Shown here: one piece after another, positions 16,960 to 34,891 of the stretch
How the letters are laid out: each line of letters begins with the position of its first letter
How positions within the stretch are numbered: position 1 is the stretch's first letter
Made by a program: the position numbers and the translations under genes
From: an uncultured Bacteroidales bacterium
Lineage (GTDB): Bacteria; Bacteroidota; Bacteroidia; Bacteroidales; Bacteroidaceae
Direction: 5' to 3'
Assembly: GCA_902774335.1 (NCBI GenBank)
Contig: CACYHW010000022.1
Span: 1 to 34,891, forward strand
Length of the DNA stretch: 34,891 nucleotides
Notes under the pieces: generated by a model
Told to the model about the DNA's origin: nothing
The model's database searches: none
Seen by the model: the letters and a program-made list of their open reading frames with translations, nothing else

Positions 16960-18714
16960 ATGAAACAATATTTCAATTCAATTAGAAAGACCGCTTGGGC
17001 TGTGTCAGCTCTTCTGATGCTGGCTTCCTGTAATGATTGGAACGATCACTACAGCTACAAGCCCCAGCCCGGTACTTCTGTAAAGACTCTTGCCGAAACT
17101 ATACAGGAGTTGTCCGGTACGGCAGAGTTTGAAGCAGCCAAGGATGATTTTGTGCTGGTTCTGCAGAGAACTAATCAGTTGAACGGTGAAAAGATTGTAG
17201 AGGGTCTTTCATACTGGGATCTGCTCGAAGAGGATCAGTTCCTGACTGTATGGATTCCTACCACCGTTACCGCTGAGGAGTGGGAAGAATATCTGAATCC
17301 TCAGACCAATGCCGAGAAGAAGAAGGTTGCACGTGAGTTCGTAATGAACCACATAGCACGTTTCAGACACTCTGTAAACTCAGTTACCAACGAGGCTGTA
17401 TATATGCTCAGTGACAAGTCATTCAAGTCTCTTCCCAAATCAATCGGAAGCATAGCTTACAGCAATGATCCTGAGAGACAGAATACCAATATCCACTGTT
17501 CAAACGGTATTATACATATCCTTGACGGAAAGATGGAGTATCTGCCCAGCATCTACGACTATCTGACACTTACCTCACCTTATACAAAGCTCCGCAAGCA
17601 CCCCAACGAGATGTACGACTACCGTACAGTCATGGGTGACTGGTTCGCCAAGTATACCGAGGAGAAGATCGATGAGGAGAAGAGTGTGGATGCCGGTTAT
17701 GATGAAAAGACCAACGAAATCAAGTGGGCTGACTCAGTTCTTATCAAGAGCAGCATCCTGATGGATGACTTCGGTTTCATCAGCGAGGAGGACAGTAACT
17801 ATGCAGTAGTTCTTCCCACACCCGCTCTTTGGATCCAGATGTACGACTCCATTACCCAGTCATTCGAGTTCGGACCCCTTGAGGCCGATGCCGACTCTCT
17901 GCAGGAGTTCTACACCAACTACTTCATGCTCACTGATATGTTCTTCAACATGAACATTCAGAAGAACAACGGTAAGGATTCAGTCACTTCCACAAGATTT
18001 GACAAGAATTATAACCTCAAGTACAAGAAGGCCTACAACACCTACTACAAGCCTTACGATGCAGGTGGTCTGTTCGCAGACCGTTATGACTCCGTTCTCT
18101 GCAGTAACGGTATCATCTACATCCGCGACAAGTGGCCTTTCACAGATGATATGCTTCACCGCAGACCCATCGTAATTGAGGCCGAGACATATTCATATGA
18201 CGGTGACGATATACGTCATCCCCGTCGTCTTATCTCTACCTTCCAGGGTAAGGAGCTTGACAACGTGTTCGTAGCTCAGCTGAGCCAGAAGAACAGTTCA
18301 CCCAGATGGAAAGTCGAGTTCAATATCCGTAACAACCTTAAGGGTAAGTACAGGGTTAAGTTTGTCATCTTCCCGAGTGAGACTCAGAAGAATGCTCAGA
18401 CCAAGCTGACCAAGCCTAACCTTTTCCACCCGATTGTTAAGTACATGCCGGAGAAGAAGTATGATGTTCTTATCGACTCTATCGAGGAGATTGACGTAGC
18501 TCCGTTCGTGACACCGGCCTTGTTCCGAAACAACGTAAACAAGATTGATACTATGGATATGGGTGTCGTAAACTTCTCAACCTGCAACTATGACAAGGCA
18601 GAGAAGAACTCACCGCGTATTACCATAGAACTCAGCAGTGAGGTGGATAGTGCCGAAGTTTACAGCTCAGAGATCTGGCTTGACTGCATTATCCTGGATC
18701 CGGTGTTTGATTGA
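16960..18714 (+). CDS. Second fasciclin (FAS1) domain lipoprotein
   Basis: The 584-residue protein has a lipoprotein signal with LASC (Cys24), followed by NDWNDHY. A FAS1-type region spans about residues 40-205, with the strand LTVWIPTTVTAEEW (about 96) and the closing segment CSNGIIHILDGKMEYLPS (about 181). A second, less regular module closes with CSNGIIYIRDKWPF (about 381). The last 185 residues, from RPIVIEAETYSY on, form a separate beta-rich domain that looks like a jelly-roll binding module, but I cannot name it. It lies between the first SusD (39 bp upstream) and the second SusC (15 bp downstream), repeating the FAS1-SusC-SusD order of the first half. Confidence 0.82.
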   Translation: MKQYFNSIRKTAWAVSALLMLASCNDWNDHYSYKPQPGTSVKTLAETIQELSGTAEFEAAKDDFVLVLQRTNQLNGEKIVEGLSYWDLLEEDQFLTVWIPTTVTAEEWEEYLNPQTNAEKKKVAREFVMNHIARFRHSVNSVTNEAVYMLSDKSFKSLPKSIGSIAYSNDPERQNTNIHCSNGIIHILDGKMEYLPSIYDYLTLTSPYTKLRKHPNEMYDYRTVMGDWFAKYTEEKIDEEKSVDAGYDEKTNEIKWADSVLIKSSILMDDFGFISEEDSNYAVVLPTPALWIQMYDSITQSFEFGPLEADADSLQEFYTNYFMLTDMFFNMNIQKNNGKDSVTSTRFDKNYNLKYKKAYNTYYKPYDAGGLFADRYDSVLCSNGIIYIRDKWPFTDDMLHRRPIVIEAETYSYDGDDIRHPRRLISTFQGKELDNVFVAQLSQKNSSPRWKVEFNIRNNLKGKYRVKFVIFPSETQKNAQTKLTKPNLFHPIVKYMPEKKYDVLIDSIEEIDVAPFVTPALFRNNVNKIDTMDMGVVNFSTCNYDKAEKNSPRITIELSSEVDSAEVYSSEIWLDCIILDPVFD

Positions 18715-18729
18715 TAAAAAGAAGACGTT

Positions 18730-21700
18730 ATGAATATATTAAACAGAAAAAGGTTATTGCCTTTGGGGCTGATCAGTCTACTGCTGCTTTCCGCTCCTGT
18801 TTCAGCACAGAGAAACAATGATGAGGCCACAGTTGTAGTGACCGGTGTTGTTACCAACGCCGCTCTGGGCAACGCCATGGCCGGTGTCAAGGTTCAGGCT
18901 TACAACAATTCCGTATACTCAGCCATGACACGTGAGGATGGTTCCTTCTCAATAAAGGTTCCCTATTATGTGTCATCACTGACTTTCCAGCTTGACGGAT
19001 ACAATACAATAGTACGTTCACTCAGCGACGGTACCGAAGGTGTCAATGTCAAGATGTTCTCAGACGTATTCTCTGAGATTTATGACCGTAAGACAGTTTC
19101 CGGTATCTCATCGACCGCTACACTTATGGATGTCAATGCCGATATCTCGGTTGACAACCAGGTGCAGCAGTCCCTGCAGGGAAACATACTGTCCAACATC
19201 CGTTCAGGTCAGATCGGCGTAGGTTCCGCTCTTCTGATTGACGGTATAAGCTCCATCAACATCAACACTCAGCCCCTTATCGTGCTGGACGGTGTTATCA
19301 TGGACATGGGATTTGACAATGTTTCAGTGCATGACGGTTTCTACAACAACCTGCTTGCCAACATTCCCGTGGAGGATCTGGAGTCGGTTACAGTGCTCAA
19401 GAACGGTTACGGTATTTACGGTCCTAAGGGAGCCAACGGTGTTATCCTTATCCAGACCAAGCGTAACAAGAGCATGGCTACCAAGATTGATGTGAACATT
19501 TCCGGTAACTATCAGGCTATGCCCAAGACTCTGCAGATGATGAATGCCGATCAGTATCGCACTTATGCATCTGAGCTTCTGGGTTCAACTGGTACCAAAC
19601 TGTCAACCTTCAAGTTCCTGCAGTCTGACCGCGACTATCACTACTACAAGATGTTCCACAATGATACAGACTGGTCTAAGGTTTCTTATAGAGACGCCTT
19701 TATCCAGAACTACAATGTGAACGTACAAGGTGGTGATGACATCGCCAACTACAACCTCTCTGTAGGTTTTGCTCTGGGCGATGCCACTCTGGTTGAGAAT
19801 GACTTCTCACGCTTCAGCCTCCGTCTGAACTCAGACATCATCCTGGCTGACAAGCTGTCTCTGCGCTTTGATGCCGCATACAGTGATGTAACCCGTGACA
19901 TGCGTGATGACGGAACTCCCGATGACATTGACAACTCAATGATCAACTCTCCCGGTTTCCTGGCTCTTGCCAAGGCTCCGTTCCTTTCACCGTATGCATT
20001 CGACGTTGACGGTAACCCCACCAAGTTCCTCTCCAACGAGGATGACTATCTGGATGAGGTCCTCACTCCCGAGGCTTCACTGTCCAACCCGCTCTCAATT
20101 CTTGTGAACGGTGACGGTATCAACAAGAACTATTTCGGTAACCGCCTTATCACTCTGGCCGTTACTCCCAAGTATGAGTTCAACCGTTATCTCTCACTGA
20201 GCGAGCACTTCACTTACACTCTGGCCAATGCCGACGAGAACTACTATACTCCTATCTTAGGTACTCCTAACTTCAAGATCGAGGGTATCGGTACTATCGA
20301 CAACAAGGCTGCTGCCATGAATGCCAAACAGGACGGCTTTATGAGTAACACTTTCCTTACCTATGCAAGACATGCCGGTTCACACGACATCAATGTACAG
20401 GGCGGTATGCGTTACATCAACAACTCTCTGGTACAGACTATCATGGTTGGTTACAACTCCGGTAACGATAAGACTCCTAACATCACCAAATCACTTAAGT
20501 TCAAGGATACCGACGGCCGTGAGACCAAGGATATCACCATGACATGGTGGGCTCAGGGTAACTACAACTACCGTGAGAAGTATTATCTGTCAGCCAGCCT
20601 GGGTATGACTTCATCATCCAGATTCGGTACCAACGTATCAAACGGTGTGAACATGTTCAGGGTACCCTGGGGTATCTTCCCCTCTGTATCAGGTGCATGG
20701 ATTATGTCTGCCGAGCCTTGGTTCAAGGTTCCCTTCATAGATTACCTGAGAATCAATGCAGGTTATGACCTGACCGGTAACGACGGTTTTGATGACACTG
20801 CTTCCAAGACCTTCTTCTCATCAGTCAAGTTCCTGCAGGTAACCGGTCTTACAATGACCAATATCGGTAACAGTTCACTGCAGTGGGAGACCACCAACAA
20901 GCTGACCGCAGGTATCAACATGAACCTGTTCGGTAACCGTCTGGCTATCGACGCCAATGTATTCAAGAGCAACACCGACAACCTGCTCTCCATCAGTGCC
21001 CTCTCATTCCTGACAGGTATTGAGACCTCATGGACCAACGGCGGTTCTCTGACAAACAGCGGTTTTGATGCATCATTCAACCTCAAGCTTCTCAACACCA
21101 AGCAGATCAAGTGGGAGGCCGGTGCTTCTATAGGTGCTTACAAGAACGAGATTACCAAACTTCCCGGACGTCCTATCGACAACGAGTTCTACGGAGCTAC
21201 TGTCAGGACAGCTGTAGGCGAGCCTGTAGGTATATTCTACGGATACCGTACCCAGAGCACCAACGGCAGCAAGGTATATGCTACCACCGAGGAGGCTCTT
21301 GCTTCAGGTCTTGAGGTATTCACAACCTATGGAAACGAGAAGGTTCAGGCCGGTGACTTCAAGTTTGTCGATGTTACTCCCGACGGTGTTATTGACGATA
21401 AGGACCGTGTAAAGATTGGTGATCCCAATCCTGATTTCTACGGACGTATCTTCACAAAGGTTGGTATGGGTAACTTCTCTCTGAGCGCAACCATGACCTA
21501 CTCTGTAGGCGGTGACATCTACAACTACCAGCGCATGATCCTTGAGAGCGGTTCACGTTTCATGAACCAGACTCTTGCAGTGACCAACCGTTGGATGGCC
21601 GAGGGTCAGGTAACCGATGTTCCCAGAATTGATTTCGATGATCCTCACGGCAATGCCCGCTTCTCGGACCGTTGGATTGAGGACGGATCATATCTGCGTC

Positions 21701-21918
21701 TCAAGAACGTCACCCTGAGCTATAGGATTCCTATTATGTCTACCTATCTGCAGGGTATCACCCTTTGGGGTTCTGCCAACAACCTGTTCACTCTGACCAG
21801 ATATCTCGGCTCAGATCCCGAATTCTCTACCAGTAACAATGTCCTGATGCAAGGAATTGACCGTGGACTGCTCCCGCAGTCAGCCAATTTCTCATTGGGT
21901 ATAAAGATTAACCTGTAA
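18730..21918 (+). CDS. SusC/RagA-type TonB-dependent outer-membrane transporter, second copy
   Basis: The 1062-residue protein has a signal peptide ending in PVSAQ. A carboxypeptidase-regulatory-like domain (about residues 35-105) is followed by a plug with SLQGNILSNIRSGQIG (about 148) and GYGIYGPKGANGVILIQTKR (about 227), then a barrel ending in NFSLGIKINL. It is clearly diverged from the first SusC: the N-terminal domain, plug and length all differ, so it is not a recent duplicate and may import a different part of the glycan. The plug segment before the barrel has the less usual QSLQGNIL in place of the common ALQGRVAG pattern. Its SusD partner starts 3 bp after the stop. Confidence 0.94.
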   Translation: MNILNRKRLLPLGLISLLLLSAPVSAQRNNDEATVVVTGVVTNAALGNAMAGVKVQAYNNSVYSAMTREDGSFSIKVPYYVSSLTFQLDGYNTIVRSLSDGTEGVNVKMFSDVFSEIYDRKTVSGISSTATLMDVNADISVDNQVQQSLQGNILSNIRSGQIGVGSALLIDGISSININTQPLIVLDGVIMDMGFDNVSVHDGFYNNLLANIPVEDLESVTVLKNGYGIYGPKGANGVILIQTKRNKSMATKIDVNISGNYQAMPKTLQMMNADQYRTYASELLGSTGTKLSTFKFLQSDRDYHYYKMFHNDTDWSKVSYRDAFIQNYNVNVQGGDDIANYNLSVGFALGDATLVENDFSRFSLRLNSDIILADKLSLRFDAAYSDVTRDMRDDGTPDDIDNSMINSPGFLALAKAPFLSPYAFDVDGNPTKFLSNEDDYLDEVLTPEASLSNPLSILVNGDGINKNYFGNRLITLAVTPKYEFNRYLSLSEHFTYTLANADENYYTPILGTPNFKIEGIGTIDNKAAAMNAKQDGFMSNTFLTYARHAGSHDINVQGGMRYINNSLVQTIMVGYNSGNDKTPNITKSLKFKDTDGRETKDITMTWWAQGNYNYREKYYLSASLGMTSSSRFGTNVSNGVNMFRVPWGIFPSVSGAWIMSAEPWFKVPFIDYLRINAGYDLTGNDGFDDTASKTFFSSVKFLQVTGLTMTNIGNSSLQWETTNKLTAGINMNLFGNRLAIDANVFKSNTDNLLSISALSFLTGIETSWTNGGSLTNSGFDASFNLKLLNTKQIKWEAGASIGAYKNEITKLPGRPIDNEFYGATVRTAVGEPVGIFYGYRTQSTNGSKVYATTEEALASGLEVFTTYGNEKVQAGDFKFVDVTPDGVIDDKDRVKIGDPNPDFYGRIFTKVGMGNFSLSATMTYSVGGDIYNYQRMILESGSRFMNQTLAVTNRWMAEGQVTDVPRIDFDDPHGNARFSDRWIEDGSYLRLKNVTLSYRIPIMSTYLQGITLWGSANNLFTLTRYLGSDPEFSTSNNVLMQGIDRGLLPQSANFSLGIKINL

Positions 21919-21921
21919 TAC

Positions 21922-23910
21922 ATGGGAACTATGAAATCCAAAACAATATTTTCAGTCATTCTGACAGCCGTTCTGGCTGGGGCTGCGGTTTCATGCGAGG
22001 ATATGCTTAGCGTTGACTCCAGTTCAGTGATCTATGCTAAGGACAATACCCTCAACCATACCTATGATACCATCTACTCGTACTTAGGTATTCTTCAGCG
22101 TTTGCAGAGCATCGCTGACCGCACCGTCGTTCTCGGTGAGATCCGTGGTGACCTTGTCGCCCTTACCGGCAGGGAGACCGACGATCTTCGTGAACTCTAC
22201 GCTTATGATTTTGCCAAGGTCAAGGAGACCAACAAGTACAATGATCCTCTTGACTACTATGCGGTAATCAATAACTGTAACTACTTTATTGAGAACGCCG
22301 ATACATCATTCTACCGTAATCAGGAGAATGTGTTCCTCAAGGAGTATATCGCAGTGCTGTCACTTAGAGCATGGACTTACCTCCAGCTTGCTCAGGTTTA
22401 CGGTAAGGTATACTTTGTCGACAAACCTATCACAAGCGGTGATCAGGCCGATGAGTCCAAGTGGGACTATGTTGACATCAAGGAACTGGCTGCCCGTCTG
22501 GCCAAGGATATCGTAGACCGTTTCCCTGATGAGAAGTTCCTGGACTACAGAGCTCCTCACTTCAGCCTGGGCGGTAACGACAATGACGACGGTTCAAAGT
22601 CACAGAAGCACAAATCAGAGAACCTGGTTATCCCCGTAAGACTTATCCTGGGTGACCTCTATCTCTGGTCTGAGGATTATGCAAAGGCTGCCAAGTACTA
22701 CTACGAGTACCTTTATCACAACACCACTTTCCATCCCGCAGGTATCAACACCATCCTATGGAACGGTTACTCATTCATGAACCTGGGTGATGATACATAC
22801 GCCGGCGGTTTCGGTGAAAAGGCTAATCCTATCTCATACATTCCTATGGAGTCCGAGGAGTATGCCGGTATCATCTCTGACCTGCCCAATGTATTCAACT
22901 CAACCAAGAAGAATGACTACTGGCCGCAGCTTACATATTCAAAGGCTATGCTCTATCAGAGCGCTCGTCAGGAGTACTGCTACCACAGAATAATTGCTTC
23001 TTCGGGTGTATCCACTCCGGTATACATGGACAAGAGACTTCAGGACAACTATCTGCTTAAGGGTGACCTGAGACTTCAGTCAATCTTCGAGGTTAAGGCA
23101 GCTAAGGATGGTGACAAGAAATCAACCACTCTGAACTCTTCAAGACAAACGTTAAAGAAAATTAATTCCGAAAAAATTTGTTTATATCGTACAGACCTTG
23201 TATATTTGAGGCTCGCTGAGGCATTGAACAGAGCAGGCCTGCCCCATATGGCGTTTGGCATACTCAAGAACGGCCTCACACAGACGTTCATTGTAGACAG
23301 TATCAGTCAGTACGAGAGAGACAAAGTGGTGGAACTGGGTATATCAACATCGGATATGTTCCCGGATTCATATTTCGAGCAGACCTACTTCCAGGCATAC
23401 CAATTCCCCACCGACGGTTCAGGCAGTTATATCAACAATGATAAGAGCAATCCTATCAGTGCCGATTATACCAAGCCTGTTGCCGGTCAGAGATCTGAGT
23501 ATTACAACACAATGGGTATCCATACACGTGGTTCAGGTGATGCCGCAATTAATGACTACTATGTAATCACTGTTAACGAGCCCACAGGTGGTGATCCCAT
23601 GCAGGATACTATCCGTGCTGTCGAGGAACTGATTCTGAACGAGATGGCGCTTGAGACATGCTTTGAGGGATACCGCTTTGGTGACCTGATGAGAATCTCA
23701 ATGCACCGTGCCAAGGATACAGGTTATCCCGGAACAGGAGGTTGGGCCGACAACGCCTTCCTTGCTGCCCGAGTTGCTTCAAGAGAGGGTGCCACAATGG
23801 AGAATCCTTTCGCAGGCAGGGATGAGGCTCTGTACCAGAGGCTTGTAGGTAGTAATGCTACCCAGTATAATGTTAACTGGTTCTTAAGAATGAGAGATAC
23901 AAAAGACTAA
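21922..23910 (+). CDS. SusD/RagB family lipoprotein, second copy
   Basis: The 662-residue protein has a lipoprotein signal with AVSC (Cys25), followed by EDMLSVDSSS. The conserved SusD helix appears as AVLSLRAWTYLQLAQVYG (about residues 144-161), and the C-terminal block as ILNEMALETCFEGYRFGDLMR (about 572-592). It is about 100 residues longer than the first SusD, with insertions in the middle. The start could be ATG 21922 or ATG 21931. The second gives the cleaner signal peptide, while the first leaves only a 3-bp gap to SusC. It is the last gene of the operon, with a strong hairpin 14 bp after the stop. Confidence 0.93.
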   Translation: MGTMKSKTIFSVILTAVLAGAAVSCEDMLSVDSSSVIYAKDNTLNHTYDTIYSYLGILQRLQSIADRTVVLGEIRGDLVALTGRETDDLRELYAYDFAKVKETNKYNDPLDYYAVINNCNYFIENADTSFYRNQENVFLKEYIAVLSLRAWTYLQLAQVYGKVYFVDKPITSGDQADESKWDYVDIKELAARLAKDIVDRFPDEKFLDYRAPHFSLGGNDNDDGSKSQKHKSENLVIPVRLILGDLYLWSEDYAKAAKYYYEYLYHNTTFHPAGINTILWNGYSFMNLGDDTYAGGFGEKANPISYIPMESEEYAGIISDLPNVFNSTKKNDYWPQLTYSKAMLYQSARQEYCYHRIIASSGVSTPVYMDKRLQDNYLLKGDLRLQSIFEVKAAKDGDKKSTTLNSSRQTLKKINSEKICLYRTDLVYLRLAEALNRAGLPHMAFGILKNGLTQTFIVDSISQYERDKVVELGISTSDMFPDSYFEQTYFQAYQFPTDGSGSYINNDKSNPISADYTKPVAGQRSEYYNTMGIHTRGSGDAAINDYYVITVNEPTGGDPMQDTIRAVEELILNEMALETCFEGYRFGDLMRISMHRAKDTGYPGTGGWADNAFLAARVASREGATMENPFAGRDEALYQRLVGSNATQYNVNWFLRMRDTKD

Positions 23911-24038: not shown

Positions 24039-27000
24039 ATGAAAAAACGAGACTTTTTGTTTTTGGGTCTTATTCTGGCCGCTGTTCCTGTAGGCGCTCA
24101 GAGACCCGTAGAAACTCCTCAGGATGCCAAAGTGATCTTTACACAGAACTTTGAGCCGGAGGATGAGACTATGTCTGCCGAGGAGGCTTGGGATGCATGG
24201 CAGGCTAAGGTTTGGGATACTATTACGTCTCTCAACTTCTACAACAGGGCATCTAGCGGTAACATCAATCCTAGTGCTGACATTAACATCTATGATGGTT
24301 CTGATGACTGGAAGATAGGTTATGTAAGAACCGACTCTATCATACCTCTTAAGAATGGTGTGGTAATAACCGATGCAAACGTTGCTGATTGGCCTGAGGA
24401 TCTGGCCAAGATCGTAACTGATGAGACTTCTGAGCGTGCACAGGCTTTTGATAAATATGGTGAGGATGGTGGTAAGTATGTATTCCGCTATATCTCAGGT
24501 AAGCCTACCATAGCTTCTTCACAGTATGGTGAGTATTATAACAATGTTTCTGCTGCTTACCGTCGTAACCTTTTTGTACGTGGTCTTGATATTGAGGATA
24601 ACACCTCTTATCGTGTAACATTGTTCATCAAGGGTAAGGCTCAGGGTACCACAAAGCCTAAGTTCTACCTTAACATGATGCGCGGTTACTTCAACTCAGA
24701 GTGCGACTTCTCAATGGGTTATGTTGATAATAACAAGGATAATCATCCGCTGGAGTACAGTACTGCATTCAGCCTTACAAAGGAGGACTTTACCGGTGAG
24801 TGGGAGAAGGTTACCTTCATGACTCACTATCTGACTGACTCTATCTCTAACGCATATATCTTCACCAAGAACGGTTACTGGTGGAGCGGACGTTGGTGGG
24901 CTACAGATGCTGAGGGTAAGACCTATGACTACATCCAGCAGCCTGACAAGTTCTTCCTGCGTCTTTCATTCGCATCCGATAGTACCACTTTTGATGTTGA
25001 TAACATCGCCATCACAAAGTCTACAATCGGTGGTGTTGAGCATGATGGAACAATGATCCGTGTGAACTTCGGTTATGACACTAACCTCAAGACTCTTGCT
25101 GACAATGCTTATAAGTCTACAGGTGTTGCCGCTATCGAGCTTCCCGGTCAGTACTTCTCAGTATTCGGCAAGGCTAAGGCTAACGGCAGATGGGTGCCCA
25201 TTGAAATCAACTCAGCTGAATATCATGATGACGGTTACATGTACATGTGGTCAAAGGATACTCAGGGAGCAGGTGGTGCAATCTATCAGAACCCCTTTAC
25301 ATCCTATGATTCAGTATTCGTATCATTCACCAATCCCGTGGATGACGATGCTATCTGCCTCAAGTACTCAGGCGAAAAGTTCCCCTATGCACTTGACACC
25401 ACTTGGATCAAGGAGGGCAAGAAGCTGAGAGGTTTCAGCAACGAGCTTTCAGTTCCTAACCCCAACATCATCAGAAACCAGTATGGCAAGCGCGTTTACT
25501 CAATGAAGATGTTGCCCCCTGTACTTGTTGATCAGCAGTATGAGAAGAATTCATTCCAGCTGGATGGTTCTATCACATCTATGGACTTCAAGTTCTCACG
25601 TCCCGTTATGTTCGACGAGGTTCCCTCAACCACAACTGAGGAGGCTCTTCTTAAGGTTACCAAGGGTGGTGTAACTGAGTTCTGGTTCGCTAGCTCTGCT
25701 ACCGGTCAGGCCGATTCAACTATCACCTTTACCCGTCAGCAGGCCGATATCACCAAGAACGGCGCTCTGATTGGTGACTACACCTTCGAGCTTTGCGGTA
25801 TCCAGGGTATTGGTACTGACTACGCTGAGAACGAGATTATCGACTATTCATTCGGTAATACCATCATGGCTACCGATGTTGCCAGCATCGACTTCAGTTC
25901 ACTTGACGAGTCTGCAGGTTATACTCAGAATCTCTCAGAGCTTGGCATCGAGGGCCTGTCAGGTGACAGATGCGCTGCTAAGATCAAGTCATTCACCGGT
26001 GCATACACCACTGGTATCATGTGGGGTCTCTATGGACAGAACACCGGTGCTGAGAACAATAAAGATAAGTGCTGCAAGCTTATCTATTCATTCGAAGCTC
26101 CCGCCGATGGCAAGTATGCCGTTGCATTTGATATGACCGGTTGCCAGAAGGGTTCATGGAACGATGATGCCAACATGGTTGTATTCCTCCGTGATGCTGA
26201 TGGCAATGATCTTGCCAAGGAGTCTTATGGAGGTACCGGAATTAAACCCAATGAGGGTGGCGATGTTAATGAGGTTAAGTCTTATACAATCTCCGCTAAT
26301 CTTAAGGCTGGTGTAAACAAGCTGGTTATCACATTGCCTAACGAAGGTTCATGGGGTGGTGGTCACAAGGGTGGTAAGATCCTGTTCGGCCTCTCAATCC
26401 AGTCTAACTTCACAAACGGTTATCCTTATGTTAAGAGCCTGAACGCCGCTATGGCCGGTCTTAACTCTAAGATTGAGTTTGCTGAGGACGATGAGGATAA
26501 GTACACAGGTGCCGCTTATGACAACGCTGTCGCTGTTGCTGAGTTCTATGAGGACTTCACCGATACAAAGCCCAGCCGTTACAACACTGTAACTGATAGC
26601 CTGAGCAAGGCTGCCAGCACACTGCAGGCTCGCTTCGATCTCGTTGCTGCTCTTGACAAGGAGTATGACAGAGCTATCGACACCATCGCTTCGTTCGAGG
26701 ATGATGATGAGCGTGCAGATTTCACTGACATGGTAGTATTCGATGAACTTTACGATCTCGTTAGCGAGGTTGAGGAGCTCATCTACTCTGACATGACTGA
26801 TGATTCTATCAAGGGTGTCACCAAGATGGTTCAGGATGCTCTGACCGCTATTGACAACCGCATGAAGCTCATCGGCACATTCAACAGCCAGCTCGCTGCT
26901 ACTGAGAAATCTATCGACGATGCTAAGTTCGATGGCATCCAGCAGTATGCAGACATGGTTGCAGTATACAACAACTATAAGAACTTCGACCTTGTAGGTT

Positions 27001-28073
27001 CAACTGACGATGAGATCACTGCTGCTACAAAGGCAGTTCTGGATGGAACCATGCCGTATGATTCATACGTTGCAGGTGTTGAGTCATCAACCGTAGGTCT
27101 GAAGGCTCTTGTTGAGCTGGCTGACGAGCTTGAGGTTGTAGTTTACGAGGACGAGGATCTTGAGGCTGCTCTCAAGGCTCGCGTTGAGGCTACCATCTCT
27201 GATGATCAGGATCTTGCCGCTATCTACAAGCAGGCTATTAAGATTGCTCTCTATCAGATGATTGCTGACGGCGACTTCAAGGAGAACGATGAAATCGACC
27301 TGACTGGCTTCATCCGCAACTTCAACCTGTACGGTGCTGCTATCCTTGACGAGGATGTTGAGCATTACAACTACCAGTGGGGTACTCCTCACGATCGTTG
27401 GAGAATGATCGCTAACCACGAGTCAACTGATGCATTCCCCGGTTGGACAACAACTGCAGCTGGCGGTAACGTTCACGTAGGTAGCGAGGCAATCGACTGG
27501 AATTCACCTAAGGCTCCTGTTTACGAGGCTTACATCGGTTCAGACTGGTCTTCAGCTGTAACCATCAAGCAGACTCTTGCTGATCTGCCCGCAGGTCTCT
27601 ATCAGCTCGGTGCCGGATTCAACTTTGATCAGGATGCCGGTAAGGACAAGAGCAAGCTCTATGCAATCAATGACACTGTAACCTATCAGAATGTTATCAC
27701 TTACAGCTCTAAGAGTTCTGAAGTTCCTTCAGCTGCTAACCAGTTCGTTGACAGCATCAAGGTTGCCGATGGTGACGTTGTTGTAATCGGTGCTGAGATT
27801 GGAAGCTACAACTCATGGACCAGACTTGATAACTTCGAACTGAAGTTCATCGGTAAGGATGCTGATTTCAACTATGCAGCTGCTATTGACGCCGAGAAGG
27901 CTAAGCTGGCTACTCTGTTGACATTCGTTGAGGCTGCCGGTCAGGATGCTTCTGTAAGCTACTACGGCATCGACGGTGTTCCTGTTGCAGCTCCTAAGGC
28001 TGGTGCTATCACAATCAAGGTTACTGACCTTGGCGGTGGCAAGCTCCAGGTAGAAAAGATACTTGTAAAGTAA
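24039..28073 (+). CDS. Large secreted multidomain protein, paralogue 1 (intact)
   Basis: I do not recognise this 1344-residue family by name. A Sec signal peptide (MKKRDFLFLGLILAAVPVGA) has no lipobox. The order that can be seen is: an N-terminal beta domain, probably of jelly-roll type, from FTQNFEP to FDVDNIAITKS (to about 335); a region with the YHDDGYMYMWSKD block (about 395) and an Ig-like strand set; and a second beta domain (about 625-800). A helical acidic region follows (about 800-1100), rich in Asp/Glu with FIVAR-like repeats, then a third beta domain with FPGWTTTAAGGN (about 1130). A short C-terminal tail (YYGIDGVPVAAPKAG ... VEKILVK) resembles the end of surface-sorted Bacteroidota proteins. 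There is no catalytic motif. A binding or adhesion role is only an inference. It is the intact reference for the two broken copies downstream. Confidence 0.8.
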   Translation: MKKRDFLFLGLILAAVPVGAQRPVETPQDAKVIFTQNFEPEDETMSAEEAWDAWQAKVWDTITSLNFYNRASSGNINPSADINIYDGSDDWKIGYVRTDSIIPLKNGVVITDANVADWPEDLAKIVTDETSERAQAFDKYGEDGGKYVFRYISGKPTIASSQYGEYYNNVSAAYRRNLFVRGLDIEDNTSYRVTLFIKGKAQGTTKPKFYLNMMRGYFNSECDFSMGYVDNNKDNHPLEYSTAFSLTKEDFTGEWEKVTFMTHYLTDSISNAYIFTKNGYWWSGRWWATDAEGKTYDYIQQPDKFFLRLSFASDSTTFDVDNIAITKSTIGGVEHDGTMIRVNFGYDTNLKTLADNAYKSTGVAAIELPGQYFSVFGKAKANGRWVPIEINSAEYHDDGYMYMWSKDTQGAGGAIYQNPFTSYDSVFVSFTNPVDDDAICLKYSGEKFPYALDTTWIKEGKKLRGFSNELSVPNPNIIRNQYGKRVYSMKMLPPVLVDQQYEKNSFQLDGSITSMDFKFSRPVMFDEVPSTTTEEALLKVTKGGVTEFWFASSATGQADSTITFTRQQADITKNGALIGDYTFELCGIQGIGTDYAENEIIDYSFGNTIMATDVASIDFSSLDESAGYTQNLSELGIEGLSGDRCAAKIKSFTGAYTTGIMWGLYGQNTGAENNKDKCCKLIYSFEAPADGKYAVAFDMTGCQKGSWNDDANMVVFLRDADGNDLAKESYGGTGIKPNEGGDVNEVKSYTISANLKAGVNKLVITLPNEGSWGGGHKGGKILFGLSIQSNFTNGYPYVKSLNAAMAGLNSKIEFAEDDEDKYTGAAYDNAVAVAEFYEDFTDTKPSRYNTVTDSLSKAASTLQARFDLVAALDKEYDRAIDTIASFEDDDERADFTDMVVFDELYDLVSEVEELIYSDMTDDSIKGVTKMVQDALTAIDNRMKLIGTFNSQLAATEKSIDDAKFDGIQQYADMVAVYNNYKNFDLVGSTDDEITAATKAVLDGTMPYDSYVAGVESSTVGLKALVELADELEVVVYEDEDLEAALKARVEATISDDQDLAAIYKQAIKIALYQMIADGDFKENDEIDLTGFIRNFNLYGAAILDEDVEHYNYQWGTPHDRWRMIANHESTDAFPGWTTTAAGGNVHVGSEAIDWNSPKAPVYEAYIGSDWSSAVTIKQTLADLPAGLYQLGAGFNFDQDAGKDKSKLYAINDTVTYQNVITYSSKSSEVPSAANQFVDSIKVADGDVVVIGAEIGSYNSWTRLDNFELKFIGKDADFNYAAAIDAEKAKLATLLTFVEAAGQDASVSYYGIDGVPVAAPKAGAITIKVTDLGGGKLQVEKILVK

Positions 28074-28319: not shown

Positions 28320-30359
28320 ATGAAGAAATTTTACTTGTTGTTAACGGGTGCCCTGTTAACGACCTTAAGTGTCGTATCCCAGCGCCCGCAATCTACGGAC
28401 AATGATCCGAAATTGATCTTTACCCAAGACTTTGAGCCTTCAAGTGAAGGTTTGTCTGCCGAGGATGCATGGGCAGAATGGCAGGCCACTCCGGTAGATA
28501 CCATTAAAGAACTCTATTATTACAACCGTACCGGAAGCGGTAACGTGAACAAGGTTGATATCTATGACGGCACATCCGATTGGAACCTTGGCGTTCTGAG
28601 AACAGACTCAACTACTGTCGGCTACGAGGCAGGCAGCGGTATCATTCTTTTGAACGGTGTTGTTGTTACAAACAATAAGGATGATAAGGCTAATGGATAT
28701 TATGATGGTGATACATATGGAATCAAGGCTGACGGTTCAGAGAGCGAGCGCGCCAAGGCATTTGAGAAATATGCCGAGGATGGTGGCAGCTACTACTTCT
28801 CTTATACCTCAGGTAATGCCGACGGTGCCGACGGTTACAGCAGCGGTGTAGTTCCCAACTACCGTCGTGACCTGTTCGTACGCGGTCTTCCCATTGAGGA
28901 CAACTCTTCATATCGTCTTACCTTCTTTATCAAGGCCAATAAGCTGGGTAGCACAAAGCCTACCTTCTATGCTGATGTAATGCGTGGTTACTACAACTCT
29001 GAGAAGCCTTTCTCACTGGGTCTGGCCAGTGACGCTGCCACATTTGAGTACAAGAAGGAGAAATTCAACGGTCAGTGGGAGAAGGTTACCTTCATGACCT
29101 ACTACCTGAACGACTCCATTGCCGACGCATTTGTTTACGCCGCCGGTTATTGGTGGGGTTCAAGCTGGACATACAATTACAACGGTCGTGACTATAACTA
29201 CATTAAGCAGCCCGACAAGTTCTTTGTACGTTTGTCATTTGCATCCGATAGTACTGCTTTCGAGCTTGATAACCTGACACTTACCAAGTCATGGATCGGC
29301 GGTGTCGAGCATACCGGCAACATGATCCGTGTAGACTTCGGTTACGAGACCAACCTGCTTGAGCTGGCTGCAGCCGCCGAGGCTGAGACCAACATCGCAG
29401 CAGTTGAGCTTCCCGGTCAGTACTTCAGCGTATCAGGTTATATCAAGAACCGCGGCTGGTATCCCATCGAGATCGAGTCGGCCGAGTACCACGATGACGG
29501 TTACATGTACATGTGGTCAAAGGACAGTGAGTCAGGCGGAAAGAAGTATCCTAACCCCTTCACTTCTTATGACACCGTGCTTGTAAGCTTCATCAACCCC
29601 GTTGACAACGAGAAGATTTGCCTTAAGTACGACGGTTCAACCTATCCCTGCGCTCTCGACAAGGAGTGGGTTGATGCCGGCAAGACAGTCAAGAACTTCA
29701 CCAACGAGCCTTCAAAGCTGAACCCCAATATCGAATATAACCAGTTCGGCAAGAAGGTTTACTCCTTCAAGCAGCTTCCTCCTGTTATCCAGTCTTATCC
29801 TTTCGAGAAGGGTTCATTCGGTCTGGAGGCCTTCAACCAGATTACCGTTGGTATGTCAAGAGTAATCGAGTATGAGGAGAACGCCACCGAGCAGTCAGAG
29901 AAGGCATTCCTTCGCGTTACCAAGGCCGGTGTCAAGGAGATATGGACTGTAAGCGAGTCAACCGATAACAGTGCAACATTTGTTCGCAGCACTGCCGATA
30001 TCAACAAGAACGGCGCCCTGGTTGGTGACTACAAGTTCGAGTTCATGAACCTTAAGGGTATCGGAACCGATTATGCCAAGACCCAGACTGTTGAGTACGG
30101 CTTTGGTCACTTTGACCATAATCCCAAGATTGAGGCTGTTTTCCAGTCTGACTTCAAGGAGAGTAGTAATGCTACCCAGTCTGTTCCTACCGGTGCTGCT
30201 ATCTGGAACGGTAAGGATGCGTTTACCGTTGGTGACGGATCGGCTATGGGTACCAAGAGCCGTCTGTTCTGGACAAATCCCGCTTCGGGCTTCACCTCAG
30301 GTTTCTATATCTCAGGTCGTGCCGAGGGACGGTCACATGGTATATGGTGTAGATGCTAA
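28320..30359 (+). CDS. Secreted multidomain protein, paralogue 2, 5' part of a frameshifted gene
   Basis: This frame encodes a signal peptide (MKKFYLLLTGALLTTLSVVS) and the N-terminal half of the same family as paralogue 1. Shared blocks include QDFEPSSEGLSAEDAW, YRRDLFVRGLPIEDNSSYR and YHDDGYMYMWSKD. Homology runs to SGFYISGRAE, then the frame reads 11 unrelated residues to a stop at 30359. Dropping one G from the GGG at 30326-30328 would give RAE-DGHMVYGVDAND and join it cleanly to the following frame. The repaired protein would have 1315 residues, close to the 1344 of paralogue 1. The break may be a true mutation or an assembly error. Confidence 0.8.
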   Translation: MKKFYLLLTGALLTTLSVVSQRPQSTDNDPKLIFTQDFEPSSEGLSAEDAWAEWQATPVDTIKELYYYNRTGSGNVNKVDIYDGTSDWNLGVLRTDSTTVGYEAGSGIILLNGVVVTNNKDDKANGYYDGDTYGIKADGSESERAKAFEKYAEDGGSYYFSYTSGNADGADGYSSGVVPNYRRDLFVRGLPIEDNSSYRLTFFIKANKLGSTKPTFYADVMRGYYNSEKPFSLGLASDAATFEYKKEKFNGQWEKVTFMTYYLNDSIADAFVYAAGYWWGSSWTYNYNGRDYNYIKQPDKFFVRLSFASDSTAFELDNLTLTKSWIGGVEHTGNMIRVDFGYETNLLELAAAAEAETNIAAVELPGQYFSVSGYIKNRGWYPIEIESAEYHDDGYMYMWSKDSESGGKKYPNPFTSYDTVLVSFINPVDNEKICLKYDGSTYPCALDKEWVDAGKTVKNFTNEPSKLNPNIEYNQFGKKVYSFKQLPPVIQSYPFEKGSFGLEAFNQITVGMSRVIEYEENATEQSEKAFLRVTKAGVKEIWTVSESTDNSATFVRSTADINKNGALVGDYKFEFMNLKGIGTDYAKTQTVEYGFGHFDHNPKIEAVFQSDFKESSNATQSVPTGAAIWNGKDAFTVGDGSAMGTKSRLFWTNPASGFTSGFYISGRAEGRSHGIWCRC

Positions 30360-32268
30360 CGATCCTATCACTCTTAAGGCCGGTGTAACCTATTCTATCA
30401 CCTTCAGTGCCGCATATTGGGATAACGCTTGTGAGACCAACCTCTACATCTATCCTAACACATTTGCTGCCGATAAGCTGTCGGAGATCAAGAGCCTTTC
30501 TACAGAGAACAAGACTCTGATAGCAACATTCACTCCCAGTGTAAAGGCTCCTTACAACACCATTCAGAAATATGATCCTCCTTACGGAAGCTGGCCTAAC
30601 GGAACCGAGTCATTCTCATTCCAGTTCACTGTTCCTGCCAACGGAAACTATCTGCTGGAGTGGGAGGTAATGAAGAACAGCACCAACGGTCTCCTTCTGA
30701 GTGACTTTAATGAGATGTACTACGGTACTCAGTATGACGCTCTTTCCGCAGTAGCCGAGGAATACTTCTATGAGAACTGGGAGAGCACCAAACCCAGCGA
30801 CTATGATGCTGCCACCGCAGTCGTTGACAACGAGCTCAAGCTGATGCAGCTTCGTGTTGATACAGTTGACCTGTACTATACAACCGAGAACAAGGCTTAT
30901 GACAAGCTCGCCGAGTTTGACGGTGACACCGAGGGCTTAACCGATCTTGAGGCATTCGTAGCCCTTGACGATATGGTTTACGATAATGAGGATCTTGACA
31001 TCACCGAGCTCACCAACTCCGAGATAACTGCCGCCATCAAGGCTTACGAGGATGCTATCAAGGCTCTTGACGACAGAATTGCCCTGATGGAGAAGTTTGA
31101 TGCCAAACTCAAGGAGGTCAAGGCTCTTGTTGAGGCTGATGATGCCCGTACAGAGTATGCCGAGTATGCAGTAATGGTTAGAGCTTACAACACTGCCGAT
31201 GCATATGACCAGATTACTCCGACCGATGCCGAGTACACTGAGGCTTACAACGCTCTTTGCGAGGGTGAGAACGCCTATGTATTCAAGGTTGACGGTGTTG
31301 ACGCTCTGAGCAGACAGGCCAAGGAACTCTATGCTCTTGCCGATTCATTGGGTTATAAGTTCAGTGATGATATCAAGGCTCGTGTTGCAGCTCTTACCTT
31401 CAAGGATGAGGCTCTGGAGAATGTTCTCCGTGAGGCTGCAGTTCTCCAGATCTACAAGATCTTTGCATCGGACGACGAGGAGAAGAAGGCTGCTCTTGCC
31501 GATAACTTTGATGTAAGTGCCCTTGTTCCCAACTACTTCCTCTATAACGATGCTCAGGTTGGCCGCGATATGGAGGACAACAGCGGTACATGGGGTATCA
31601 AGAAGGAGGCTAACTCAACTGCATTCCCGGGTTGGACCATCACTCCTACCGGCGGTAACTGGTATCCCACCAAGGAGGCTGACGTAGCTAACGAAGGCAA
31701 GGTGGCATGGGATGTTGAAGGTCATATCTATGCCGGCGGCCTGAGATGCGGAAAGCAGACTCAGGGTAATATTGATGCTGTAATTGAGGGTCTTCCCCAG
31801 GCATTCTACTGGTTCGGATTCTATGGTTCTAACCAGACTTCGAATGTAAGTGCTGTTGTTGAGGGTGATACAATTTTCTACAATGACAACATCAAGTACA
31901 TGGAAAATGCCGGTGGCAACAAGTTCAACAACAAGACTGTCGGTGTTGACTCTGTCAAGGTATCCACAACTCTCAAGTTCTCTCTCAAGCAGACTTCGGG
32001 CAGTAGCAGTATGTTTGATATCAGATACTTTGTACTCTATCTGCGCGGTCAGCAGCAGGGTGTTGACTATGCAGCTCTTGTAACTGCTCAGGAGGCTAAG
32101 GTTGCCGACCTGCTTACATTCGCTGATGCTCCTGCAGCTGAAGAGAGTGTACAGTACTTCAACCTGGGCGGTGCTCCTATCGCCGCTCCCAAGGCTGGTG
32201 ACATTGTAATCAAGCGCACTGTTCTGAGCAACGGAACGGCTGTTGTTGAGAAGGTTCTTGTAAAGTAA
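30337..32268 (+). CDS. Secreted multidomain protein, paralogue 2, 3' part of the frameshifted gene
   Basis: This +1 frame continues the family homology from GHMVYGVDANDPITLKAGV. It covers the second beta domain (YWDNACETNLYIYPNTF), the acidic helical region (KPSDYDAATAVVDNEL onward), the third beta domain with AFPGWTITPTGGNWYP, and the C-terminal tail QYFNLGGAPIAAPKAG ... VEKVLVK. The given start is the first in-frame ATG after the break and is only nominal. On its own the fragment has no signal peptide and would not be exported, so it is best read as the second half of one gene starting at 28320. The open frame extends upstream to 30073, but that stretch overlaps the 5' part in another frame and shows no homology. 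Confidence 0.75.
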   Translation: MVYGVDANDPITLKAGVTYSITFSAAYWDNACETNLYIYPNTFAADKLSEIKSLSTENKTLIATFTPSVKAPYNTIQKYDPPYGSWPNGTESFSFQFTVPANGNYLLEWEVMKNSTNGLLLSDFNEMYYGTQYDALSAVAEEYFYENWESTKPSDYDAATAVVDNELKLMQLRVDTVDLYYTTENKAYDKLAEFDGDTEGLTDLEAFVALDDMVYDNEDLDITELTNSEITAAIKAYEDAIKALDDRIALMEKFDAKLKEVKALVEADDARTEYAEYAVMVRAYNTADAYDQITPTDAEYTEAYNALCEGENAYVFKVDGVDALSRQAKELYALADSLGYKFSDDIKARVAALTFKDEALENVLREAAVLQIYKIFASDDEEKKAALADNFDVSALVPNYFLYNDAQVGRDMEDNSGTWGIKKEANSTAFPGWTITPTGGNWYPTKEADVANEGKVAWDVEGHIYAGGLRCGKQTQGNIDAVIEGLPQAFYWFGFYGSNQTSNVSAVVEGDTIFYNDNIKYMENAGGNKFNNKTVGVDSVKVSTTLKFSLKQTSGSSSMFDIRYFVLYLRGQQQGVDYAALVTAQEAKVADLLTFADAPAAEESVQYFNLGGAPIAAPKAGDIVIKRTVLSNGTAVVEKVLVK

Positions 32269-32289
32269 TTTACTGAATACTATTTAGTT

Positions 32290-32330
32290 GAACCGGCAGG
32301 GGAATTATAACCCCGTGCCGGTTCTTTTTT
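32290..32330 (+). terminator. Terminator after paralogue 2
   Basis: GAACCGGCA-GGGG (32290-32302) pairs with CCCC-G-TGCCGGTTC (32311-32324) with a single bulged G, followed by six T. Confidence 0.88.
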
Positions 32331-32452
32331 ATTCCTGGCCCTTTTTACCCCCGATGTGCCCTCTGATACCTTCACGTCCGTTTTTCCTGTTAAAATATGT
32401 TAATATCAAAATAATTCTTAAACTGTCATAAACCTTTTAACAATTAAATCGA

Positions 32453-32460
32453 TACTTTTG
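32453..32460 (+). promoter_or_regulatory. Probable promoter -7 box of paralogue 3 (TACTTTTG)
   Basis: TACTTTTG fits TAnnTTTG and lies 73 bp before the ATG at 32534. The leader contains two ATTAACCTAAT-type repeats (32497-32506 and 32510-32519). The gap 32331-32452 shows nothing else I can support. Confidence 0.5.
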
Positions 32461-32533
32461 AGTTCTTGAAGAACTGAAATCAGACAAGTTAAATACATTA
32501 TTAACCTAATTTATTAACCTAATTCAAATCCTT

Positions 32534-34570
32534 ATGAAGAAATTTTACTTGTTTTTATCAGGTGCAATGCTGATGTCACTGCCCGTGATGTCTCAGCAGA
32601 AGCCTGCAGCAACTGAAAATGACCCTAAGGTTATTTTTGTCCAGGACTTTGAGCCTTCAAGCAGTGGTTTGTCGGCCGAGGATGCTTGGCAGGAATGGCA
32701 GACCACCCCGGTGGATACCATCCGTGAACTTTACTATTACAACCGTATTGCTACCGGTACAGTAAGCAATGCTAACATCTATGACGGTACCGATGACTGG
32801 AATATTGCTTTCGTGAGAACAGACTCTACTACCGAAGGTTATGAGCCCGGAAGCGGTATTATCCTTAAAAACGGTGTTGTTGTAACAAACAACAAGAATG
32901 ATAAGGCCAATGATATTTACAACGAGGAGGTATATGGTATCAAGGCTGACGGTGATAACATTGAGCGTGCTCAGGCATTTGAAAAGTACGGTGAGGATGG
33001 TGGTGATTACTACTTCTCCTATACTTCAGGTAATGCCGACGGTGCCGACGGTTACAGCAGCGGCGTAGTTCCCAACTACCGTCGTGACCTGTTCGTACGC
33101 GGTCTGCCTATTGAGGACAACTCATCTTACCGTCTGACATTCTACATCAAGGCAACCAAGCTTGGTAGCACAAAGCCTACCTTCTATGCCGATGTAATGC
33201 GTGGTTACTATAACTCAGAGAAGCCTTTCTCTCTTGATCTCACCAACGGTGCTGCCACCTTCGAGTACAAGAAGGAGAAGTTCACCGGCGATTGGGAGAA
33301 GGTTACCTTTATGACTTACTACCAGAATGACTCTATTGCCGATGGTTATGTTTATGCAAAGGGTTACTACTGGTACAATGATTGGAACTATACCTACAAT
33401 GGTAAGGGATATACCTGCATCAAGCAGCCTGACAAGTTCTTTGTACGTCTGTCATTTGCTTCCGATAGTACTGCATTCGAACTTGATAACCTGTCACTTA
33501 CCAAATCATGGATTGGCGGCGTCGAGCATACCGGTAACATGATCCGTGTAGACTTCGGTTACGAGACCAACCTGCTTGAGCTGGCTGCAGCCGCCGAGGC
33601 TGAGACCAACATCGCAGCAGTTGAGCTCCCCGGTCAGTATTTTGAAGTATCAGGTTATGTAAAGGGTCGTGGATGGTATCCTATAGCCATTGAGTCTGCA
33701 GAGTACCACGATGACGGTTACATGTACATGTGGTCAAAGGATGTTGATGCTGGTGGTGGCAGATTGGTTCCCAACCCCTTCACATCTTATGATACCGTGC
33801 TTGTAAGCTTCATCAACCCCGTTGACAACGAGAAGATTTGCCTTAAGTACGATGGTTCAACTTATCCCTGCGCTCTCGATAAGGAGTGGGTTGATGCCGG
33901 CAAGACAGTCAAGAACTTCACCAACGAGCCTTCAAAGAAGAACCCCAACATCACAGTTAACCAGTTCGGAAAGAAGGTTTACTCAATGAAGCAGCTTCCT
34001 CCTGTAATCCAGTCACTTCCCTTCGAAAAGGGTTCATTCGGTCTGGAGGCCTTCAACCAGATTACCATTGGTATGTCAAGAGTAATCGAGTACGAGGCAA
34101 ACGCTACCGAGCAGTCAGAGCTTGGATTCCTCCGCGTTACCAAGGCTGGTGTCAAGGAGATCTGGACTGTAAGCGAGTCAACCGACAGCACAGCAACATT
34201 TGTACGTAGCGCTTCCGATATCAACAAGAACGGCGCCCTGGTTGGTGACTACAAGTTCGAGTTCATGAACCTTAAGGGTGTCGGAACCGACTATGCCAAG
34301 ACTCAGACCATTGAGTACGGCTTCGGTGACTTCAATCATAACCCCAGCATCGAGGTTGTATACGCTACCGACTTCAAGGAGAGCAGTGTTGCCACACAGT
34401 CTGTTCCCACCGGTGCCGTTATCTGGAACGGTAAGGATGCATTCACCATTGGTGACGGATCGGCTATGGGTACCAAGAGCCGTCTGTTCTGGACAAATCC
34501 CGCTTCGGGCTTCACCTCAGGTTTCTATATCTCAGGTCGTGCCGAGGTATTGCTCTCACTGCAGGTGTAA
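32534..34570 (+). CDS. Secreted multidomain protein, paralogue 3, 5' part of a broken gene
   Basis: A signal peptide (MKKFYLFLSGAMLMSLPVMS) is followed by the N-terminal half of the family, very close to paralogue 2 throughout and identical to it at the DNA level in some stretches (92 bp at 33536-33627, 99 bp at 34449-34547). As in paralogue 2, homology ends at SGFYISGRAE. The frame then reads VLLSLQV and stops at 34570. Compared with the repaired paralogue 2, about 37 bp is missing between the G at 34547 and the T at 34548, and this shifts the frame. The gene has its own promoter-like box. It is not known whether the break exists in the living genome. Confidence 0.8.
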   Translation: MKKFYLFLSGAMLMSLPVMSQQKPAATENDPKVIFVQDFEPSSSGLSAEDAWQEWQTTPVDTIRELYYYNRIATGTVSNANIYDGTDDWNIAFVRTDSTTEGYEPGSGIILKNGVVVTNNKNDKANDIYNEEVYGIKADGDNIERAQAFEKYGEDGGDYYFSYTSGNADGADGYSSGVVPNYRRDLFVRGLPIEDNSSYRLTFYIKATKLGSTKPTFYADVMRGYYNSEKPFSLDLTNGAATFEYKKEKFTGDWEKVTFMTYYQNDSIADGYVYAKGYYWYNDWNYTYNGKGYTCIKQPDKFFVRLSFASDSTAFELDNLSLTKSWIGGVEHTGNMIRVDFGYETNLLELAAAAEAETNIAAVELPGQYFEVSGYVKGRGWYPIAIESAEYHDDGYMYMWSKDVDAGGGRLVPNPFTSYDTVLVSFINPVDNEKICLKYDGSTYPCALDKEWVDAGKTVKNFTNEPSKKNPNITVNQFGKKVYSMKQLPPVIQSLPFEKGSFGLEAFNQITIGMSRVIEYEANATEQSELGFLRVTKAGVKEIWTVSESTDSTATFVRSASDINKNGALVGDYKFEFMNLKGVGTDYAKTQTIEYGFGDFNHNPSIEVVYATDFKESSVATQSVPTGAVIWNGKDAFTIGDGSAMGTKSRLFWTNPASGFTSGFYISGRAEVLLSLQV

Positions 34571-34891
34571 CCTACTCAATCAGTTTCAATGCCGCATATT
34601 GGGATAACGCTTGTGAGACCAACCTCTACATCTATCCTAACACATATACTAAAGAGACGTTGAGTCAGATTAAGAGCCTCTCAATGGAGAGCAAGACTCT
34701 GATTGCAACATTCACTCCTGGTGTAAAGGCTCCTTACAACACCATTCAGAAATATGATCCTCCTTACGGAAGCTGGCCTAACGGAACCGAGACATTCTCA
34801 TTCCAGTTCACTGTTCCTGCCAACGGAAACTATCTGCTGGAGTGGGAGGTAATGAAGAACAGCACCAACGGTCTCCTTCTGAGTGACTTTA
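34549..34891 (+). pseudogene. Paralogue 3, 3' part, out of frame and cut by the window end
   Basis: From ATT at 34549 this frame reads IALTAGVTYSISFNAAYWDN and on through YIYPNTYTKETLSQIKSLS, matching paralogue 2 from ITLKAGVTYSITFSAAYWDN. It stays open to the end of the window. It has no start codon near the break and would not be made as a separate exported protein. It is the continuation of the gene beginning at 32534, in a -1 frame relative to it. The last 99 bases are identical to 30611-30709 of paralogue 2. Confidence 0.7.

Follow-up and report, generated by a model that had tools for sequence, protein, structure and literature searches.

Frame breaks at one codon in two tandem Bacteroidales paralogues coincide with the contig-end overlap length of their metagenome assembly

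Two tandem paralogues in the genome of an uncultured Bacteroidales bacterium leave their reading frames at the same codon. Judged from the deposited sequence, these breaks are very probably local misassemblies introduced during metagenome assembly and not real gene damage. Each break lies at the right edge of an exact 99-bp tract that the two copies have in common, and the same length recurs wherever contig ends of this assembly overlap in their usual way. The window analysed here is contig C22 in its entirety (34,891 bp), and the genome comprises 29 contigs and 2.35 Mb at ~87% completeness. The right end of C22 encodes three tandem paralogues, designated copies 1, 2 and 3, which are laid out as follows (R1 is the first of the two exact tracts listed further below).

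24039-28073, plus strand: copy 1, an intact open reading frame of 1344 aa, with 33% identity to the C-terminal half of copy 2
28320-30327, plus strand: left arm of copy 2, the N-terminal ~669 residues; its right limit is the end of R1
30328-32268, plus strand: right arm of copy 2, open up to its own stop codon
32534-34547, plus strand: left arm of copy 3; its right limit is the end of R1
34548-34891, plus strand: right arm of copy 3, severed by the contig end; the C-terminal half lies on contig C3, minus strand

Copy 2 therefore spans 28320-32268 in total, in two frames. The preliminary description of this DNA had placed the exit from frame in copies 2 and 3 directly after the codons for SGFYISGRAE, and so it stands: the open reading frames at 28320-30359 and 32534-34570 stop a few codons later, and homology resumes immediately in another frame, over 30328-32268 in copy 2 and from 34549 to the contig end in copy 3. 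Its account of 'one extra G' in copy 2 holds in part. The frame is indeed shifted by +1 at 30325-30328, but an extra G is one notation among others, and a loss of 3n-1 bases is equally possible because several relatives have a few more residues at this site (~1 to 8, counted by eye in the alignment rows). The absence of ~37 bp after 34547 in copy 3 is borne out and appears as a 38-column gap relative to the right arm of copy 2 as assembled. The lesions of copies 2 and 3 differ from one another and fall at the same codon. A search of the genome for further members of the family, as a source of the absent pieces, retrieved copies 1 to 3 only, with copy 3 running onto C3.

Two exact tracts, R1 immediately left of the breaks and R2 farther right, are each present once in copy 2 and once in copy 3. 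The tracts and the lesions at their edges are listed here.

30229-30327, plus strand: R1 in copy 2, 99 bp, exact, identical to 34449-34547; its right edge is the copy 2 break
30325-30328, plus strand: copy 2 break, +1 relative to the frame, interpreted as a bad join
30611-30709, plus strand: R2 in copy 2, 99 bp, exact, identical to 34793-34891
30709-30710, plus strand: third scar, in frame, 90 bp absent from copy 2 relative to the continuation of copy 3 on C3, at the right edge of R2
34449-34547, plus strand: R1 in copy 3, 99 bp, exact; its right edge is the copy 3 break, where ~37 bp are absent
34793-34891, plus strand: R2 in copy 3, 99 bp, exact; its right edge is the contig end

At the breaks, copies 2 and 3 are identical over 99 bp leftward and 0 bp rightward, and all four right edges of R1 and R2 are abnormal: 30327, 30709 and 34547 are damaged, and 34891 is the end of the contig. 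When the left arms of the two copies are aligned, an upstream identical run of exactly 99 occurs at one of 2015 columns, and this is the break column. The probability of finding a lesion exactly 99 bp past the last difference between two paralogues is at most 0.0037 at any divergence, and 1.4e-5 for two independent sites; the actual figure is much smaller still because 1685 of 2007 aligned bases of the left arms (84%) agree.

The third scar emerges from the continuation of copy 3 on another contig. The end of C3, taken on the minus strand, overlaps the end of C22 by 50 bp, flush, and C3 carries 90 bp directly after the R2 tract that are absent from copy 2 at 30709|30710. This 90-bp segment is also found in copy 1 and in all 18 of the aligned relatives, which were picked as long open reading frames, so that their openness is partly selected, unlike in the count of 20 loci given below. 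The loss is invisible to a scan for open reading frames because it is in frame. An overlap of 50 bp between C22 and C3 is what would be expected if the true common tract were 148 bp long (99 + 49).

The significance of the 99-bp length becomes apparent on the scale of the genome. A comparison of 400 bp from each of the 58 contig ends, covering overlaps of 25 bp and longer, identified 17 end pairs (34 of the 58 ends) that have exactly 99 bp in common, flush, 12 of them in opposing and five in the same direction. The other flush overlaps are three, of 50 (C22 with C3), 34 and 55 bp, and 99 bp accounts for 17 of the 20 flush pairs. A repeat survey covered 462,902 of 2,348,358 bases (~20%; C22, C3, 100 kb of C6 and the ends of other contigs) and passed over words occurring more than 20 times. 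Within this scope it lists 19 exact repeats of 99 bp, namely the 17 end pairs and two repeats in C22. The sole listed repeat exceeding 99 bp in the surveyed bases measures 100 bp and connects positions 307-406 of C5 with the last 100 bp of C28, again a contig end; a chance match of one added base would account for it, and R1 and R2 are unaffected. The next lengths listed below 99 bp are 92, 89 and 87 bp. Thus, 99 bp is the usual graph overlap in this assembly, exceeded in one case by a single base, and the exact repeat at the breaks equals the contig-end overlap length of the same assembly, as misassembly at the k-mer limit requires. R1 is the sole one among the 19 exact 99-bp repeats that does not touch a contig end, and both of its copies are broken there; R1 would thus act like a pair of hidden contig ends that have been joined onward.

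A plausible course of events can be outlined. Copies 2 and 3 would have in common tracts too long for the assembler to resolve, presumably from short reads. In the k-mer graph, the left-hand contig of each copy would have stopped 99 bp into such a tract, and a later step, paired-end scaffolding or local gap closing, would have added the right-hand pieces with a wrong overlap length, the right-hand piece probably being trimmed by a misestimated overlap. This further joining step must be assumed because a plain k-mer graph contig cannot traverse one 99-mer twice. The join at 30327 in copy 2 would have gained one base or lost 3n-1 bases, the join at 34547 in copy 3 would have lost ~37 bp and the join at 30709 in copy 2 would have lost 90 bp, while the fourth such end, at 34891, would have been left unjoined as the contig end; the true genes would presumably be intact. 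Three observations support misassembly: the 99-bp overlap length, its coincidence with all four edges, and the whole genes of relatives. The suggestion in the preliminary description that the assembly failed twice at one repeat edge is strongly supported by the fact that R1 measures 99 bp, the overlap of most paired contig ends. Its reservation about a mere exchange of arms was also well founded: each join seems to have cost sequence or added one base, the outcome to be expected if pieces were scaffolded with a misjudged overlap. A swap of arms between the copies is ruled out by the identical codon phase at the junction and by the sequence absent at the joins.

Which software produced the joins is a separate matter. 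The default k of IDBA-UD is 100. In a congeneric MAG (G008), the 32 ends of 16 contigs (of ~20) include nine flush 99-bp pairs, alongside six other flush overlaps of 76-92 bp. G008 is taken to be RUG476, which its name series would place in the rumen study PMC5830445; the main text of that study does not name RUG476. PMC5830445 describes assembly by MEGAHIT with k up to 87 and by idba_ud, so that the 99 bp of G008 point to idba_ud. According to sections of PMC7111523, the overlap between contig ends equals n for IDBA-UD and n-1 for metaSPAdes, where n is the largest k. Combined with the default given above, this rule lets IDBA-UD fit 99 bp only if the overlap were k-1, and the software behind the present genome is therefore not fixed by the 99-bp length. 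The same sections of PMC7111523 report local errors of assembly that lack read support and are suspected to feature prominently in IDBA-UD assemblies. Among known phenomena, the present case comes closest to local misassembly at k-mer-length repeats in metagenome assemblies, where exact repeats of a single length likewise mark contig ends and joins; its peculiarity is that one codon is struck in two tandem paralogues, so that it mimics parallel gene inactivation.

The preliminary description had proposed comparing the locus in related genomes, and this comparison shows a full-length single open reading frame at 17 of 20 loci. The right arm of copy 2 was matched in 29 of 61 genomes (its own, which is counted among the 29, and 60 others), all of one genus; a locus search with this arm alone as the query confirmed no relative. 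The 20 loci were found in Bacteroidales MAGs by a separate scan that used the alignment as the query, and some of them are contigs already contained in the 61-genome search. Their titles refer to water buffalo, yak, horse, red deer, reindeer, Ca. Colenecus caballi or RUG isolates. The three remaining loci have different histories. L156 remains open up to the limit of its stretch, and the longer stretch L109, taken as the same locus, has it whole at 1364 aa; L160 is severed by its contig end; and L161 is broken without an internal repeat of at least 25 bp, its only match being one of 26 bp to L158 of the same MAG. The state of L161 indicates that breaks of other causes exist in the family. None of the 60 relatives was near enough to serve as a same-species genome; the DNA to the left of the break matched in one of them, with 73% identity across 161 bp. 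In genome G014 (locus L114), two open tandem copies have exact tracts of 928, 322 and 264 bp in common, and exact tracts of more than 99 bp between tandem copies therefore do occur in the family.

It is important to weigh the breaks against genuine biology. If copies 2 and 3 were real pseudogenes, each damaged in its own event where a hotspot of mutation or recombination borders a conserved tract, the frame breaks would simply stand as they do in the deposited sequence, the long common tracts of G014 would favour recombination, and L161 would provide an example of a broken orthologue. The surroundings of the three junctions were scanned for repeats, inverted or direct, that might have provoked the lesions; neither 30327 nor 34547 is crossed by a hairpin or a direct repeat. 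At the third scar, in favour of such an origin, 30709|30710 falls within one arm of an imperfect inverted pair whose 12-nt arms are 83% complementary and separated by 78 nt. A perfect inverted pair of 8 nt and some short direct repeats lie off the junctions, and repeats near the junctions are not thought to have caused the lesions. Genuine pseudogenes also leave unexplained why the common tract should measure exactly 99 bp both at the breaks and, separately, at the contig end, and why a third scar should sit at the same kind of edge; this origin is very unlikely. The hotspot raised in the preliminary description finds no support, given that no repeats span 30327 or 34547 and that most of the relatives read have an open frame at the homologous site, and two independent biological lesions, as also considered there, are not needed once assembly explains the breaks. 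There is a similarly small probability that the tandem genes are truly interrupted at a hotspot tract in a population with many junction variants, so that real variation would have tripped the assembler.

Tandem paralogues with near-identical islands at a SusC/SusD locus also bring to mind a programmed or phase-variable switch, in which the tract would be a recombination cassette and tandem surface proteins would trade their C-terminal parts. The codon phase at the junction is identical in both copies, sequence is absent at the joins, most of the relatives read are open at the corresponding position and contig ends throughout the genome repeat the 99-bp length; against these observations, a switch is scarcely credible. 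Just as improbable is a contig that is a chimera of strains, with the joins lying between strains and not between paralogues. The many flush 99-bp end pairs reflect graph branching, which strain variation may also cause; however, the 99-bp tracts are common to two paralogues of C22 itself and suffice for such branching, and a strain chimera would still be an assembly artefact, compatible with explaining the breaks by misassembly.

The neighbourhood of the three copies offers an indication of their function, and comprises the following features.

11791-15192: TonB plug
15214-16920: SusD
18730-21918: SusC
21922-23910: SusD-like

Rfam and tRNA scans of the DNA returned one tRNA, which bears no relation to the breaks. 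Copies 1 to 3, which lie beside SusC/SusD genes, probably encode secreted or surface glycan-binding proteins used with SusC/SusD-type importers, akin to the SusC/SusD-linked surface glycan-binding proteins of Bacteroidota polysaccharide utilisation loci. In sequence comparisons, no Pfam family reaches its cut-off in the tandem-copy proteins, NCBIfam gives no match for copy 1, the right arm of copy 2 or the left arm of copy 3, a PDB sequence search with copy 1 has no match at E up to 0.1, and no lipobox cysteine is seen by eye at the N-termini of copies 1 to 3. The fold of the copy 3 left arm was predicted at a mean pLDDT of 30 without an alignment and 80.8 with one of 21 rows. The predicted layout probably runs from a CBM4-like jelly roll through a CopC-like domain to a low-confidence region that contains the breaks; residues 601-678 fall below a pLDDT of 50, and the model therefore gives no structure for that region. 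Foldseek alone yields low TM-scores over the whole query (0.08-0.18 among the rows listed), and its best rows include an arabinoxylanase, BT_4411 and CBM4 entries, intermixed with unrelated beta-rich proteins.

The break common to two copies is almost certainly ordinary once explained, and not a real biological feature of this bacterium. It illustrates that a MAG can mimic parallel gene inactivation, with false lesions appearing at one codon because the paralogues have the same k-length tract. The in-frame loss of 90 bp is a more insidious form of the same error, which a check of open reading frames does not flag. Whether the exact tract at a break equals the contig-end overlap length is a cheap, read-free test that separates artefact from biology, and it is applicable to pseudogene calls in MAG collections.

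Copy 2 of the tandem family of glycan-binding-type surface proteins carries a third scar at 30709-30710, at the right edge of its second 99-bp tract, where 90 bp have been lost in frame, a loss to which the ORF scan is blind. Copy 3 runs to the end of the contig, and its C-terminal half is probably located on contig C3 of the same genome. A flush overlap of 50 bp joins the two contig ends (window 34842-34891 against the end of C3), and on the strength of this shared sequence the two contigs are likely to be adjacent in the genome. Elsewhere in the assembly, positions 307-406 of L195, a stretch of contig C5, match the end of contig C28 exactly over 100 bp; this is the sole such case in the 462,902 of 2,348,358 bases compared, exceeding the other contig-end pairs (99 bp) by one base.

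Two proteins with fasciclin matches lie at the SusC/SusD locus of the window:

8470-11778, 1102-aa protein with a fasciclin match, ahead of SusC/SusD-type genes
16960-18714, second protein, flanked on each side by a SusC/SusD pair, whose fasciclin match falls short of the Pfam threshold

Such proteins among SusC/SusD genes are an uncommon composition for a polysaccharide locus.

Relatives carry both broken and open family members. In a red deer MAG (Red_deer_4_mag_217; L161, 3953-8135) one member is split into two ORFs of 507 and 697 aa; a search for internal repeats of at least 25 bp within it found none, and the break represents either a genuine pseudogene or an error of another kind. The relative G014 harbours two open tandem copies (L114), and the exact tracts of 928, 322 and 264 bp that these genes have in common suggest recent duplication or gene conversion.
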